Positions 30,626 through 34,398 of a stretch of DNA of 64,000 bases are shown in pieces. How positions within the stretch are numbered: position 1 is the first letter of the stretch; each line of letters opens with the position of its first letter. The notes under the pieces were generated by a model. The model did not search any database, was not told the origin of the DNA, and saw only the letters and a list, made by a program, of their open reading frames with translations. A program made the position numbers and the translations under genes. This DNA comes from Halobacteriales archaeon YIM A00013. Its GTDB lineage: Archaea > Halobacteriota > Halobacteria > Halobacteriales > Haloarculaceae. The stretch spans positions 2,604,001-2,668,000 of the forward strand of contig JAKCFM010000001.1 of NCBI GenBank assembly GCA_025041195.1. Direction: 5' to 3'.

Positions 30626-30684
30626 GGTCGATCTCTCCGTTGGTGGGCGTGGTGTTGGAACAGTTCGCCGGTGAAGTGTGTGAA

Positions 30685-30867
30685 TCAGTCCTCCTCGCGG
30701 AGATTCGTGACATCCATCATCTCTGTGAGGAGGCGAGTTTCGAAGTCGCTAGCAGCGACGATGCGTTCATCTCCAGTCGACCGAGCGGTTGTGGTCGTTC
30801 TGTACCAGTCCCGACGATCCCCGAGGGGCAACAGATAGGTGATGACTGCACTGTTGAGAACGGTCAC
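30685..30867 (-). pseudogene. Internally deleted VapC-type toxin remnant
   Basis: A GTG start at 30867 overlaps the VapB stop (GTGA), the usual coupled layout of a vapBC pair. The first 15 residues (VTVLNSAVITYLLP) resemble the N-terminus of a PIN-domain toxin, but with Asn where the first catalytic Asp is expected. After about 25 residues the sequence jumps to a C-terminal-like segment (SDFETRLLTEMMDVTNLRE). Total length is 60 residues against about 130 for a full VapC. This points to an in-frame internal deletion and a dead toxin. The PIN identification rests on short segments. Confidence 0.5.
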
Positions 30868-31052
30868 CGTTCGAAGCTCTCCCGAGAGCGTTTCACGGCT
30901 GTCCGTGCGTAGCCGGCCTCGTTTGCACTCCACGCACCGATGGTGATAGGCCGCTCACTCCGGGCGAGGAGATCATCAAACGTTTCGTCCTCTCGTTTGC
31001 GGGTTGTCAGCATCCGTTTGGTTTCATCGGAAACCCGGATTGACGGACTCAT
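30864..31052 (-). CDS. VapB-type antitoxin, copy 1
   Basis: The 62-residue protein starts MSPSIRVSDETKRMLTTRK, a ribbon-helix-helix-like DNA-binding start, and continues EDETFDDLLARSERPITIGA, the form of the haloarchaeal DUF7557/VapB antitoxins. Its TGA overlaps the GTG of the VapC remnant. A second related gene lies at 33301-33477 in the same orientation, about 85 percent similar by eye over 200 bases. The upstream bases GTATACACATG may include a self-regulatory operator. Confidence 0.7.
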   Translation of the reverse strand: MSPSIRVSDETKRMLTTRKREDETFDDLLARSERPITIGAWSANEAGYARTAVKRSRESFER

Positions 31053-31165
31053 GTGTATACTTACTAGATACAATCTCAAGCAACGTTGTGGATTGGGTAT
31101 GGGTGTCGAGTTTGCGTACATTCACGCAACCCACCACTAACCACATTGATCAGTGATAATCTACT

Positions 31166-31181
31166 GCCCACTTCGTTGGGC
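31166..31181 (-). terminator. Hairpin downstream of the Tat-exported orphan gene
   Basis: GCCCACTTCGTTGGGC forms a stem of GCCCA/TGGGC with a six-base loop. It lies four bases beyond the stop of the minus-strand gene ending at 31185, so it may act as a transcript end or mark an element boundary. Confidence 0.35.
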
Positions 31182-31184
31182 TTC

Positions 31185-31811
31185 TCATCGCTCCCGTTGA
31201 ATTGTTAGAACGTCATAATTCGGGTTTATGATTTTGACAGTTTTGAAGTCCCGATTAGAAAAATACACGTCTGATCCCAGGGGGTTGACGTGTCCACCCA
31301 CACCATGGTCATCATTAAACATATAATCATTATCTTCAACACTAAATGGCTGGGGGGTTATTCTACTAGCAGTTTCGACCTCGTAACTATATTCATTATC
31401 TCCCCAAGCTTCAACTTTAAATGCATTATCACCATTAAATTTATTAGTTCGAAGGCGGAACAATGAATTCTTATTATCAAAGGATGCGACGACGCGGGAG
31501 ATGTTTGCATCAGGGTGGATATAGTAAGAATCGTAGCGTCCAGGATTGATACCTGCCGTGATGTATGTGGTTTGGTCGTTTATTATGTCACCGTCATCGG
31601 CCCCAGCCCCTTTTTTCAATATCGTATGGGGTACAGTTTTGAAGGCTCCTATTTCATACGACCAGGATTCGCCATGCGCTTCTACTGATATCAAGTCATA
31701 TCCATCACCTGCTGTCACCGTTCCGGTTGCGGCCGCCCCACCGGCGATCCCGATGATACCGGCGGCCGTTGATCGCAAGAATTGTCGTCGCCCAAGCGAG
31801 TTTCCTTTCAT
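31185..31811 (-). CDS. Tat-exported protein of unknown function
   Basis: The 208-residue protein starts MKGNSLGRRQFLRSTAAGII, with a twin-arginine signal (GRRQFLRS) and a hydrophobic stretch ending near TVTAGDGYD. The mature part is beta-rich with many Asn, Asp and aromatic residues (DGDIINDQTTYITAGINPGR, ASFDNKNSLFRLRTNKF). No lipobox is seen, so a soluble secreted protein is likely. Its composition is more AT-rich than the hem genes around the island. An ATG three codons earlier is possible. No family was recognised. Confidence 0.7.
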   Translation of the reverse strand: MKGNSLGRRQFLRSTAAGIIGIAGGAAATGTVTAGDGYDLISVEAHGESWSYEIGAFKTVPHTILKKGAGADDGDIINDQTTYITAGINPGRYDSYYIHPDANISRVVASFDNKNSLFRLRTNKFNGDNAFKVEAWGDNEYSYEVETASRITPQPFSVEDNDYMFNDDHGVGGHVNPLGSDVYFSNRDFKTVKIINPNYDVLTIQRER

Positions 31812-31820
31812 GATTTGCAT

Positions 31821-32139
31821 TAATGTATATTTTATTTGTTTAAATCCTTTTTGTCTATTAACGAATAGAAATATTCTCTGAAAATATAGATAGTCAGAAT
31901 GTGACGGTTATCATCGAATTTGAATCGATGCTGTTCGACTCAGTCGGGCTGCGAGATACGGCTTGATCGCATCGTAGGCGCTACTAGTGATACAATCACT
32001 GTTCGAAACCAATTCCTTCTAACAACCCATATCGCGAGAACATTCACTGCCGAGGCGAGCTACGAGATGTGTGAACTGAGTTCCACTCATCTAAGAGAAC
32101 ATCAGTAGTTCGATGTGCCCAGTCGCGTTATGAGCAGAT
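31821..32139. other. 319-base spacer without a recognised gene
   Basis: The sequence is AT-rich at its left (31821-31915) and normal to the right. Only short open frames are present; a 22-codon minus-strand stretch reading YDAIKPYLAARL looks protein-like but has no start and is too short to name. This is probably the shared upstream region of the divergent Tat protein and Doc/Fic-like genes. Confidence 0.5.
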
Positions 32140-33021
32140 ATGACCGATACCCCGCCAGTGCTGCCGCTCCACAACCCCGCCGATAATCGTTTTTCTCTCA
32201 GGTTCATTAGCGATACCAAGCAGGACCTGTCTAAGAAGAAGTCACAATTATCAAATAAGTCCACCGTAGAGACGATTCACGTCGAAGAATCGCTCGACAA
32301 AGGAATAATCTATCTCCTGTACACCAGGCCGCTCTTCGAAACTGCGTTTCCCACGTTTGAGACGCACGATGACGTCATTGAGTGGTTTACTGCGAACTTT
32401 TCTGGAAGAGACAGGCAGGTTCTTTTCGCTATCATCGATATTTTCGACGGAATTCTCACGGAGAAAGAGAATCTAGGAGCAGACATTTCTATGTACAAGA
32501 AGATGGATTTGGAGAAGATACCAGATATTCTGAATCGGGTTGAGTGGCGACAGTTGGTTCCCGATGTGGGGGCAGAGTTACTCTCGTATTTTATTCTCGC
32601 TCATCCGATGCCAAACACGAATCACCGAACTGGAATCGGACTCCTTGACCGATATCTCACTTCGTACGATGGAGGGTTTGCGATGCCAGCTACCGGTGAG
32701 GCGGATCAGTGGTACAAGTGGGCTCGCGAGTTCATTTACCACTCAAAACGAATCCTCACCCTTCGAAATCAGCTTCCATTGCTACGGTGGGCTCACCAGT
32801 ACGGGTATGAGTGCGCTGAGCGCAAAGAAGGAATCCAGATTACTCTCGAGGAGATCGACCTCGATCGAGCGGATTACCGGAGCTACTACGCCAATCGCCA
32901 TCTCGACCGAACCCGTAAATTCGTTGAAACAGCGCTTGAAGAGGCTGACGCCACCCACTTACGGCAAGAAACGGACGATGGAAAACGAGCGTTCGGTGAT
33001 CGGTTACGAAAAAATGCGTAG
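32140..33021 (+). CDS. Doc/Fic-like protein
   Basis: The 293-residue protein carries HPMPNTNHRTGIGLLDRYL at residues 155-173, which aligns with the Doc/Fic core HxFx(D/N)xNKRTxL. His, Asn and Arg are kept, while the usual Phe is Met and the Asp/Glu is Asn. The preceding helix (VPDVGAELLSYFILA) fits the fold. Such enzymes add AMP or phosphate to target proteins, and Doc works as a toxin with a Phd antitoxin. No Phd-like partner was recognised; VapB-like genes lie on either side and a 36-codon ORF converges on its end. The family assignment rests on one motif. Confidence 0.5.
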   Translation: MTDTPPVLPLHNPADNRFSLRFISDTKQDLSKKKSQLSNKSTVETIHVEESLDKGIIYLLYTRPLFETAFPTFETHDDVIEWFTANFSGRDRQVLFAIIDIFDGILTEKENLGADISMYKKMDLEKIPDILNRVEWRQLVPDVGAELLSYFILAHPMPNTNHRTGIGLLDRYLTSYDGGFAMPATGEADQWYKWAREFIYHSKRILTLRNQLPLLRWAHQYGYECAERKEGIQITLEEIDLDRADYRSYYANRHLDRTRKFVETALEEADATHLRQETDDGKRAFGDRLRKNA

Positions 33022-33132
33022 CTAATCGGGGAGATGTGCGAGTTTGCGCCCAATGTCGTGCGAGTCCTTGCTGAGCTGGGAGCGGTCGCCCATCTGCTCT
33101 TCAAGGACTTGCTTGAATTCGTCAAACTCCAT
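33022..33132 (-). CDS. 36-residue acidic ORF convergent with the Doc/Fic-like gene
   Basis: The frame reads MEFDEFKQVLEEQMGDRSQL then SKDSHDIGRKLAHLPD and stops one base after the end of the convergent gene. It is acidic, helical-looking and open from a clear ATG, with wobble positions that look coding. It is too short to judge by length alone. It might encode a small regulator, or be the relic of a longer gene; it is not proven to be expressed. Confidence 0.35.
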   Translation of the reverse strand: MEFDEFKQVLEEQMGDRSQLSKDSHDIGRKLAHLPD

Positions 33133-33300
33133 TGTTACTCGTTAGTCAACGTTGACGCCATATGAATGTAGTTATCGGAGCAATTCATCTTAAAGGACAA
33201 TGGAAGGCTTCAGGTCGAAGAATAGCACATTATTTGCATTTGTCTAGTACAATCGATTAGGCAACGAAAACCTCCAATGGAAAGATTCGAAGCTCTCCCG

Positions 33301-33477
33301 TTAGCGCTTCACGACTGCCCGTGCGTAATCGGCTTCGTTCGCACTCCACGCACCGATGGCGATGGGCCGCTCGCTCTGTGCGAGACGCGAAAGGAGTTCA
33401 TCAAACGTTTCGTCCTCCAGTTTGCGGGTTGCCAGCATCCGTTTCGTTCCACCTGAGATCCAGATTGACGGACTCAT
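33301..33477 (-). pseudogene. VapB-type antitoxin, copy 2, shortened
   Basis: The 58-codon frame starts MSPSIWISGGTKRMLATRKL and matches copy 1 (30864-31052) along its length, including ERPIAIGAWSANEADYARAV. A TAA after VVKR ends it four codons before the position where copy 1 stops, and similarity ceases at about 33287 with no VapC following. The conserved RVSDETK start is changed to WISGGTK. It could still make a DNA-binding antitoxin without its toxin, or be an inactive relic. Confidence 0.55.
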
Positions 33478-33533
33478 GTGTATACCTACTTGATACCATC
33501 TCAAGCAGCTTTTGCGGACAGGGTACTGGTATC

Positions 33534-33547
33534 ATGTGTATACACAT
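33534..33547. repeat. 14-base perfect palindrome related to the VapB upstream sites
   Basis: ATGTGTATACACAT is a perfect inverted repeat. Its half ATGTGTATAC also spans both VapB start codons, at 31051-31060 and 33476-33485. It may be an operator for the antitoxins or a relic of a third copy. Confidence 0.4.
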
Positions 33548-33767
33548 TCACGAAATCAAAAACTTGACTCGCTGGCAAAGTTGACGTCAGGACCGATATG
33601 TAATCCCATTCGGCCGGTCTGCACCAGGATAGTCAGACGCAGCACCGTTTTGCAACGGTCAGAAACTTGTTTGTGTGGATATTCGGGATGTGTTGGAATA
33701 CCTTGCCATATCTGGGGCAAGTATATGAAGAACGATGTCTTCCAAACTATATAGGAAATATAACATT

Positions 33768-34270
33768 ATGAGTTGGGAAAATGACCTTGAGGCCGCCTGG
33801 GCTGAGATTGACGAAACGAATACCGATGCGTTCGTGGAACCCGCAGCGCAGTCACCGACTCTTCGGTGCCACCGGAGATCCGTGACTTCGAAATTGCCTG
33901 CGCGCACGACTCCACCGGGCGCTCAGATCTGGCCGTGGACGGGTATCGTCAAGCCCTCTCGGCAGGACTGTCGGAATATAGGGGGCGTCGCGCCAAAATT
34001 CAGCTAGCGAGCTCGCTGCGTAATCTTGGGCAGTCCGACGAGAGTGTGCAGATCCTTACCGAGGAGTCGACGTCCGTTGGTGACGGTCTTGATGATGCCG
34101 TCACGGTGTTCTTGGCCCTCGCGCTGGCTGACGTTGGTCGCGACCGCGAAGCGGTAGCACAGCTGGTCCACTCGCTTGCCGACCATCTGCCGCGGTACAC
34201 AGCGTCCGCACATCGCTACGCAGACGTACTGGTCACTCCCGAAGATGAACAGCACGAGCAACAGCAATGA
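33768..34270 (+). pseudogene. Frameshifted tetratricopeptide-repeat protein
   Basis: The 5' part reads MSWENDLEAAWAEIDETNTD then AFVE, and the frame then fails near 33840. The next frame continues RSAVTDSSVPPEIRDFEIAC and then DSTGRSDLAVDGYRQALSAG, RRAKIQLASSLRNLGQSDES and AVTVFLALALADVGRDREAV, typical of TPR_5-type helical pairs. Joining the two frames gives a normal TPR protein of about 165 residues. A small deletion around GTGGAACCCGCAGCG explains the break. An internal ATG at 33866 could still give a shortened product. Confidence 0.65.
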
Positions 34271-34398
34271 ATCGACATACCACCACCCCAACTGATTGCC
34301 ATCGGTCCGCAATCACCTTCGAATCGGAACGCTCGTAGCCCCCACGAGACAGCACGATAGAACCCCTTTTCAGGCACGGTGTCGGAGTGGCTGTATAC

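Follow-up and report, generated by a model that had tools for sequence, protein, structure and literature searches.

The window analyzed here, a stretch of 64,000 nucleotides of Halobacteriales archaeon YIM A00013, contains an intact ORF of 293 codons whose product carries the sequence HPMPNTNHRTG at residues 155-165, as an earlier note on this DNA had read it. A 36-codon ORF on the opposite strand converges on its 3' end (Table 1). The surroundings of the longer ORF are low in G+C (about 47-50% versus about 60%), and the genes on either side of this stretch are, as read from the sequence, presumably hemL and hemC. The interval between the hemL-like and the hemC-like gene varies among related genomes, measuring 3.6 kb here (30663-34310) and 6.6 kb in CP071306 (locus L005, 5247-11860), and resembles an insertion hot spot. 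Apart from a Tat-type N-terminus (matched by TIGR02811 at E = 0.011, short of the cut-off), the 211-aa ORF at 31185-31820 on the minus strand had no family match. Two ORFs resembling VapB_antitox (30867-31121 and 33301-33504, minus strand; Pfam E-values 2.9e-5 and 0.0088, both below cut-off) lie in a direct repeat, 86-87% identical and 2.4 kb apart, that flanks the two convergent genes. Blastn comparison with other genomes delimited a conserved block at positions 32139-33176 (against L001), 32131-33176 (against L061) and 32095-33187 (against L058). A second member of the same protein family is encoded on another contig of this genome, in which no match to PF02661 was found.

Table 1. Features of the putative toxin-antitoxin locus (positions refer to the window)
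Feature	Position	Strand	Basis
Putative Doc/Fic-like toxin gene, 293 aa	32140..33021	+	Intact ORF, ATG to TAG; widespread family; profile matches of relatives; AF2 pLDDT 88
N-terminal alpha/beta region, family-specific, approximately residues 1-67	32140..32340	+	AF2 secondary structure; no family match
Fic/Doc active-site motif HPMPNTNHRTG, residues 155-165	32602..32634	+	Six positions invariant in 32 divergent members
C-terminal region, family-specific, approximately residues 225-293; invariant R228, K229, I234, Y250, H254	32812..33018	+	Alignment, AF2 model
TAGCTA, abutting stop codons of toxin gene (+) and micro-ORF (-)	33019..33024		Sequence
Micro-ORF, 36 aa (MEFDEFKQVLEEQMGDRSQLSKDSHDIGRKLAHLPD), proposed antitoxin	33022..33132	-	Counterpart at 49/49 toxins; pN/pS 0.15; outlasts broken toxin
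12-nt palindrome GTCAACGTTGAC 5' of micro-ORF, function doubtful	33145..33156		Absent from nearest relatives
TATA-like element TTCATA, -34 from micro-ORF start, presumed promoter	33161..33166	-	Position; A+T-rich window across the family
Block conserved with other genomes: toxin gene, micro-ORF and micro-ORF upstream region	32131..33187 (approximate)		Blastn

A divergent Doc/Fic family

An alignment of 32 family members sharing less than 85% identity revealed that H155, P158, N159, N161, H162 and R163 of the motif are invariant, as are Y119-K120, W136, S149 and, in the C-terminal part, W191, W194, S202-K203, T207, R209, R228-K229, Y250 and H254. The earlier observation that the motif keeps the His, Asn and Arg of the Doc/Fic core (H155, N161 and R163) consequently applies to all 32 proteins. 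Conservation of the motif His among homologues had been set beforehand as a test, and this residue was found in 32 of 32 members and in 48 of 49 full-length members of a wider set (less than 90% identity). The sole exception (L087, G066 contig 3) reads YALPNANHRT, has an intact micro-ORF beside it and carries the same His-to-Tyr substitution as the DocH66Y protein of entry 3dd7. The family-wide form of the motif is H[PASTGV][LMF]PN[ATSG]NHR, and one divergent member (L255) contains the canonical Phe (HPFPNANHRT). The published Doc consensus is HxFx(D/N)(A/G)NKR (PMC4177925). As this consensus permits either Asp or Asn, the Asn at the acidic position is normal for Doc; of the two replacements originally proposed, that of the Phe stands and that of the acidic residue carries less weight than it first seemed to. 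The genuine departures are Met or Leu in place of Phe and His in place of Lys, giving N-H-R rather than N-K-R or N-G-R. Apart from these two positions, the motif is nearer to Doc than to AMPylating Fic proteins.

Profile searches placed the relatives more securely than the window protein itself. Among the cores of 31 members, 29 matched the NCBIfam model DOC_P1 (TIGR01550; best E-value 1.3e-5), 21 matched PHROG 577 'Doc-like toxin' (best 1e-6) and 6 matched Pfam Fic (PF02661; best 9e-4). The core of the window member aligned with positions 7-90 of the 122 positions of DOC_P1 at E = 0.2, its 11.8 bits lying below the curated cut-off of 38.65 bits. The window protein alone, including the N-terminal part that had been described as unlike anything recognized, had no match in Pfam, NCBIfam, PADLOC or PDB sequences. 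The suggested HMM search with Fic/Doc profiles therefore succeeded for the relatives, whereas the window protein alone fell below every cut-off. A profile search of the PDB retrieved the death-on-curing protein 9vzc (E = 0.0021), in which NANKRT aligns with the motif. With haloarchaeal Doc proteins, hhalign gave a weak but co-linear alignment in which the motifs coincide (pairwise E = 0.0046, probability 7.6%). Its only match to long Fic proteins was short and did not cover the motif.

The full-length AF2 model of the toxin has a mean pLDDT of 88.4 and places the motif between helices spanning residues 140-154 and 161-176. Foldseek returned no significant match for this model (E > 0.1), and Fic proteins made up 13 of the top 50 PDB chains. 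For a weaker, core-only model (pTM 0.55), the top three Foldseek matches were all chains of P1 Doc, with TM scores of at most 0.49 and non-significant E-values of 1.4-2.2. The structural comparison of these models is consistent with Doc/Fic membership and insufficient as proof by itself. Taken together, the profile matches of the relatives, the conservation of the motif and its His and the P1 Doc structures as nearest neighbors support the earlier Doc/Fic call and the assignment of the family as a divergent branch of Doc/Fic (Fido superfamily).

Distribution of the family

Relatives of the toxin (E <= 0.001) were detected in 163 of 391 genomes of the class and in 57 of 86 genera. Since the protein is this widespread and six motif positions are identical in 32 members, the ORF at 32140-33021 is, as judged by conservation, a genuine gene, and a chance ORF is excluded. 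The matches include 7 loci in named genomes, and 58 plasmid records have a match. In a sample of 295 genomes of the phylum, all 21 positive genomes belong to the same order, which backs the suggestion of a haloarchaeal branch. No viral carriers of the toxin were found in two scans of IMG/VR or in phage records. On plasmids typed MPF_T (L060, L152, L153, L154 and L158), the toxin gene adjoins a conserved block of opposite-strand ORFs of about 140, 578, 280 and 370 aa. In four other loci, lineage-specific ORFs (139-169 aa in L001 and L061, 132-158 aa in L004 and L007) share a few bases with the start of the toxin gene and adjoin recombinase-like ORFs; the toxin gene may use upstream transcription in these cases.

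A convergent micro-ORF accompanies the putative toxin gene

Counterparts of the micro-ORF, encoding 34-43 aa on the opposite strand and convergent at the toxin 3' end, were present at all 49 intact full-length toxin genes (less than 90% identity), divergent members included. The stop-codon ends of the two genes lie -16 to +76 nt apart in these loci. The profile used for this search includes divergent forms and was built partly from the same 49 peptides, so that its E-values are not independent; the position, length and shared C-terminus of the micro-ORF can be recognized by eye across loci. With redundant copies included, 93 of 96 toxin genes have the micro-ORF. In one of the remaining three (L076) a TnpB-like ORF separates the two genes and the micro-ORF is displaced by 1434 nt, and in the other two (L042 and L054) none was found within flanks of only 1.5 kb. 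A TnpB-like ORF lies 120 nt 3' of the toxin gene in L069, L074 and L076, and in L069 and L076 the micro-ORF is found about 1.4 kb away, past this ORF. The distances among toxins are correlated with those among micro-ORFs (Mantel r 0.91), as expected of co-inherited genes. As a control, 50 canonical haloarchaeal Fic/Doc genes and the 126 kb around them contained no match to the micro-ORF.

No same-strand neighbor of the toxin gene is conserved across the family loci, and no Phd homolog was detected among the scanned neighbors, in agreement with the missing Phd partner reported before. Several other antitoxin candidates were considered and rejected. The conserved block ends near position 33187, before the VapB-like ORF at 33301, and no VapB-type ORFs recur beside the relatives. 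The earlier proposal of an unusual antitoxin named these VapB-type ORFs and the 36-residue ORF; it finds no support for the former and has strong comparative support for the latter as a candidate. The same-strand upstream ORFs that overlap the toxin gene (cysteine-containing, 139 aa, in L001 and L009; 132-158 aa in L004 and L007) are lineage-specific, and an ORF located 53-68 nt 5' of the toxin gene, PadR-like by eye, is specific to one plasmid clade.

The micro-ORF is subject to purifying selection

Pooled over 265 pairs, the micro-ORF had a pN/pS of 0.15 in its own frame, against 2.2 and 2.4 when the frame was shifted, and 23 independent pairs gave pS 0.317 and pN 0.048. By this substitution pattern the micro-ORF is a real protein-coding gene. 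Its consensus is roughly M....E....L.E.......S....E.GR.VA.L.D, in which the Leu and Asp of the C-terminal LxD are invariant in all 49 peptides, and the peptides for which a charge was computed are acidic (net -1 to -7). The peptide had no convincing Pfam or NCBIfam family, no PDB sequence match and no resemblance to a known antitoxin. None of the inspected plasmid gene tables, which are incomplete by construction, lists the micro-ORF. Across the family, an A+T-rich window is found about -34 to -27 from its ATG, with TTTATA or TTCATA in many members. Haloarchaeal promoters whose transcripts are leaderless or nearly so have such an A+T-rich region. The palindrome upstream of the micro-ORF was rejected as an operator in view of its absence from the nearest relatives.

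The micro-ORF outlasts the putative toxin gene

A broken toxin gene beside an intact micro-ORF was observed in at least 16 loci. For example, the toxin gene on the related chromosome CP071306 (L005) has lost its first 160 codons by a 5' deletion and that of Halocatena salina (L058) is frameshifted, with the micro-ORF intact in both. A further set of 60 loci was retrieved by way of micro-ORFs with no obvious full toxin gene beside them. Of these loci, 14 contained opposite-strand toxin remnants, 2 contained a full toxin gene and 41 (E under 1e-8) had no toxin gene within about 2.5 kb. The solitary micro-ORFs are also under purifying selection (pS 0.336, pN 0.053). Both genes are broken in one locus (L020, G016). 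An intact toxin gene demonstrably without a micro-ORF was not found among the 49 toxins at less than 90% identity. The asymmetry may in part reflect sampling, as the loci were picked via micro-ORF matches; the reverse search, starting from the toxin, is the count of 49 of 49. Loss of the toxin gene with retention of the micro-ORF, the reverse of which was not seen, is as expected of an antitoxin, and in this comparison of genomes it is the chief argument for reading the micro-ORF as one.

Two groups of solitary micro-ORFs have recurring surroundings. Nine loci (L214, L215, L217, L219, L221-L223, L226 and L228) carry a micro-ORF of the MDLEETVEYLSTELDIERSEHVREVGRAVAELRD type with neighbors that are shared in most of them and no Doc-like gene within 2.5 kb; this type could be an orphan antidote. 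The solitary micro-ORFs of L210, L224, L231, L233, L234 and L238 have two recurring ORFs in their vicinity, of which one looks HTH-like by eye and the other encodes about 150 aa; this pair may be another toxin-antitoxin type.

Comparison with known toxin-antitoxin systems

The family shares with Phd-Doc systems (P1 and relatives; TIGR01550; structures 3dd7, 3k33 and 3kh2) the Doc-type core, the motif H-x-x-x-(D/N)-(A/G/T)-N-x-R-T and a two-gene logic, and a short peptide suffices to inhibit Doc (PMC10728895). It differs in having Leu or Met for Phe and His for Lys in the motif and in its extra N- and C-terminal regions (293 aa versus about 125 aa in Doc). Furthermore, Phd and its DNA-binding domain are absent, and the partner converges at the 3' end instead of lying upstream in an operon. 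Class I FicTA modules (VbhA-VbhT, EcFicA-EcFicT) likewise combine a Fic-fold toxin with a small protein antitoxin. Their antitoxins carry the inhibitory motif (S/T)xxxE(G/N), and VbhA is encoded 5' of VbhT (PMC3667792). The present family departs from the canonical HxFx(D/E)GNGRxxR of these modules and of AMPylating Fic enzymes, and (S/T)xxxE(G/N) is found in none of the 49 micro-ORF peptides, which makes inhibition of the VbhA kind unlikely. Intramolecular inhibition through the same motif was also rejected, as only 7 of 49 toxins contain the motif and its position varies among them.

An archaeal Phd-Doc pair, for which toxicity and neutralization were reported in Sulfolobus, likewise consists of an archaeal Doc toxin with a protein antitoxin (PMC11065993). 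Going by that paper's description, it is set apart as a two-gene Phd-Doc system whose motif is HXFX(D/E)(A/G)N(G/K)R and whose antitoxin is assigned to arCOG10132 (PMC11065993). Type II features are present in the family studied here, namely the conserved adjacent gene for a small protein (49 of 49) and loss of the toxin gene with retention of the partner (at least 16 loci). As the defining features of the established types were looked for and not found, the family is, as far as its sequences indicate, a member of the Fic/Doc superfamily that is neither a Phd-Doc operon nor a class I FicTA module. By analogy it may work like Phd-Doc. Among the open-licence papers listed in searches on haloarchaeal Doc systems, haloarchaeal microprotein antitoxins and type II modules with convergent genes, no title or abstract describes the arrangement, and an earlier description is possible.

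Proposed mechanism and alternative explanations

We consider it likely that the locus is a two-gene toxin-antitoxin cassette composed of a divergent Doc/Fic-fold toxin and a convergent 36-residue micro-antitoxin. It is likely that this cassette represents a haloarchaea-wide type, in which an N-H-R Doc/Fic-fold toxin would be neutralized by a stand-alone peptide of 34-43 residues, encoded tail-to-tail and devoid of a DNA-binding part. H155, N161, H162 and R163 would transfer phosphate (or a nucleotide) from ATP to a target and thereby arrest growth; by analogy with P1 Doc, this target is probably a translation factor. P1 Doc would by default suggest that an elongation factor is phosphorylated, and the Lys-to-His replacement leaves other chemistry possible. 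Residues 52-73 of Phd, its 22-residue C-terminus, have pM affinity for Doc and are as inhibitory as the full protein (PMC10728895). In a similar manner, the microprotein, acidic, probably helical and presumably expressed from its own promoter, would bind the toxin directly without the help of a DNA-binding domain. The invariant C-terminal Leu-x-Asp is a candidate contact to the active-site N-H-R, with the Asp possibly facing H162 and R163; in the modeled archaeal Phd-Doc pair an Asp of the antitoxin contacts the Lys and Arg of the motif (PMC11065993). The convergent layout could allow separate regulation of the two genes, and the cassette, which occurs on plasmids and in islands, may force cells to retain it.

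Several observations speak against a cassette: the window protein alone stays below every profile cut-off and its Foldseek matches are non-significant, type II modules do not usually have convergent genes, the micro-ORF is unlike known antitoxins and the existence of approximately 41 solitary micro-ORFs might point to a function apart from the toxin. The absence of significant database matches for the window protein alone and of significant Foldseek matches (E-values above 0.1) would also suit a chance resemblance of the motif in an unrelated fold. This reading is scarcely credible given that the relatives match independent Doc/Fic models and align with them at the motif, that the motif is invariant and that P1 Doc is the top structural neighbor of the core. 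A further alternative sees the Doc-like protein as a modification enzyme of the cell's housekeeping or of mobile elements, with the peptide as its regulator. Many copies are indeed plasmid-borne, with integrases or conjugation-like genes next to them, and upstream genes overlap the start of the toxin gene at some loci, but patchy presence and frequent truncation or frameshift with the partner spared suit a toxin better than a housekeeping gene; we regard this alternative as unlikely.

The micro-ORF, too, can be read in other ways. It could encode a co-factor or adaptor that, for instance, delivers the target to the Doc-like enzyme or activates this enzyme. The strict association would suit any obligate partner, and the solitary copies indicate that the micro-ORF can have a life of its own. 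However, a co-factor should decay with or after its enzyme, whereas the micro-ORF is repeatedly intact beside a broken enzyme or alone under purifying selection and no intact enzyme was shown to lack it, which renders this role decidedly improbable. It is very improbable that the antidote is an antisense RNA, with convergent transcription silencing the toxin mRNA in a type I-like manner and the peptide being incidental. The tail-to-tail layout provides overlapping 3' ends and the micro-ORF has its own presumed promoter, but the constraint acts on the protein (pN/pS 0.15, with shifted frames above 2) and persists in copies that have no toxin gene nearby. On this comparative evidence, the 36-residue microprotein is most likely the antidote of the Doc-like toxin.

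Implications

If this explanation is correct, a widespread archaeal toxin-antitoxin family has so far been missed because its toxin falls below the Fic/Doc profile cut-offs and its antitoxin gene is too small for routine annotation. A type II antitoxin could then be a bare neutralizing peptide, and the two genes would not need to form an operon. The regulation of such a non-operonic pair would become a testable question, and peptides of 34-36 residues would offer a natural minimal Doc inhibitor for structural work. The finding would also raise the question of what an N-H-R transferase modifies in the archaeal cell, and the cassette may help to explain the retention of haloarchaeal plasmids.
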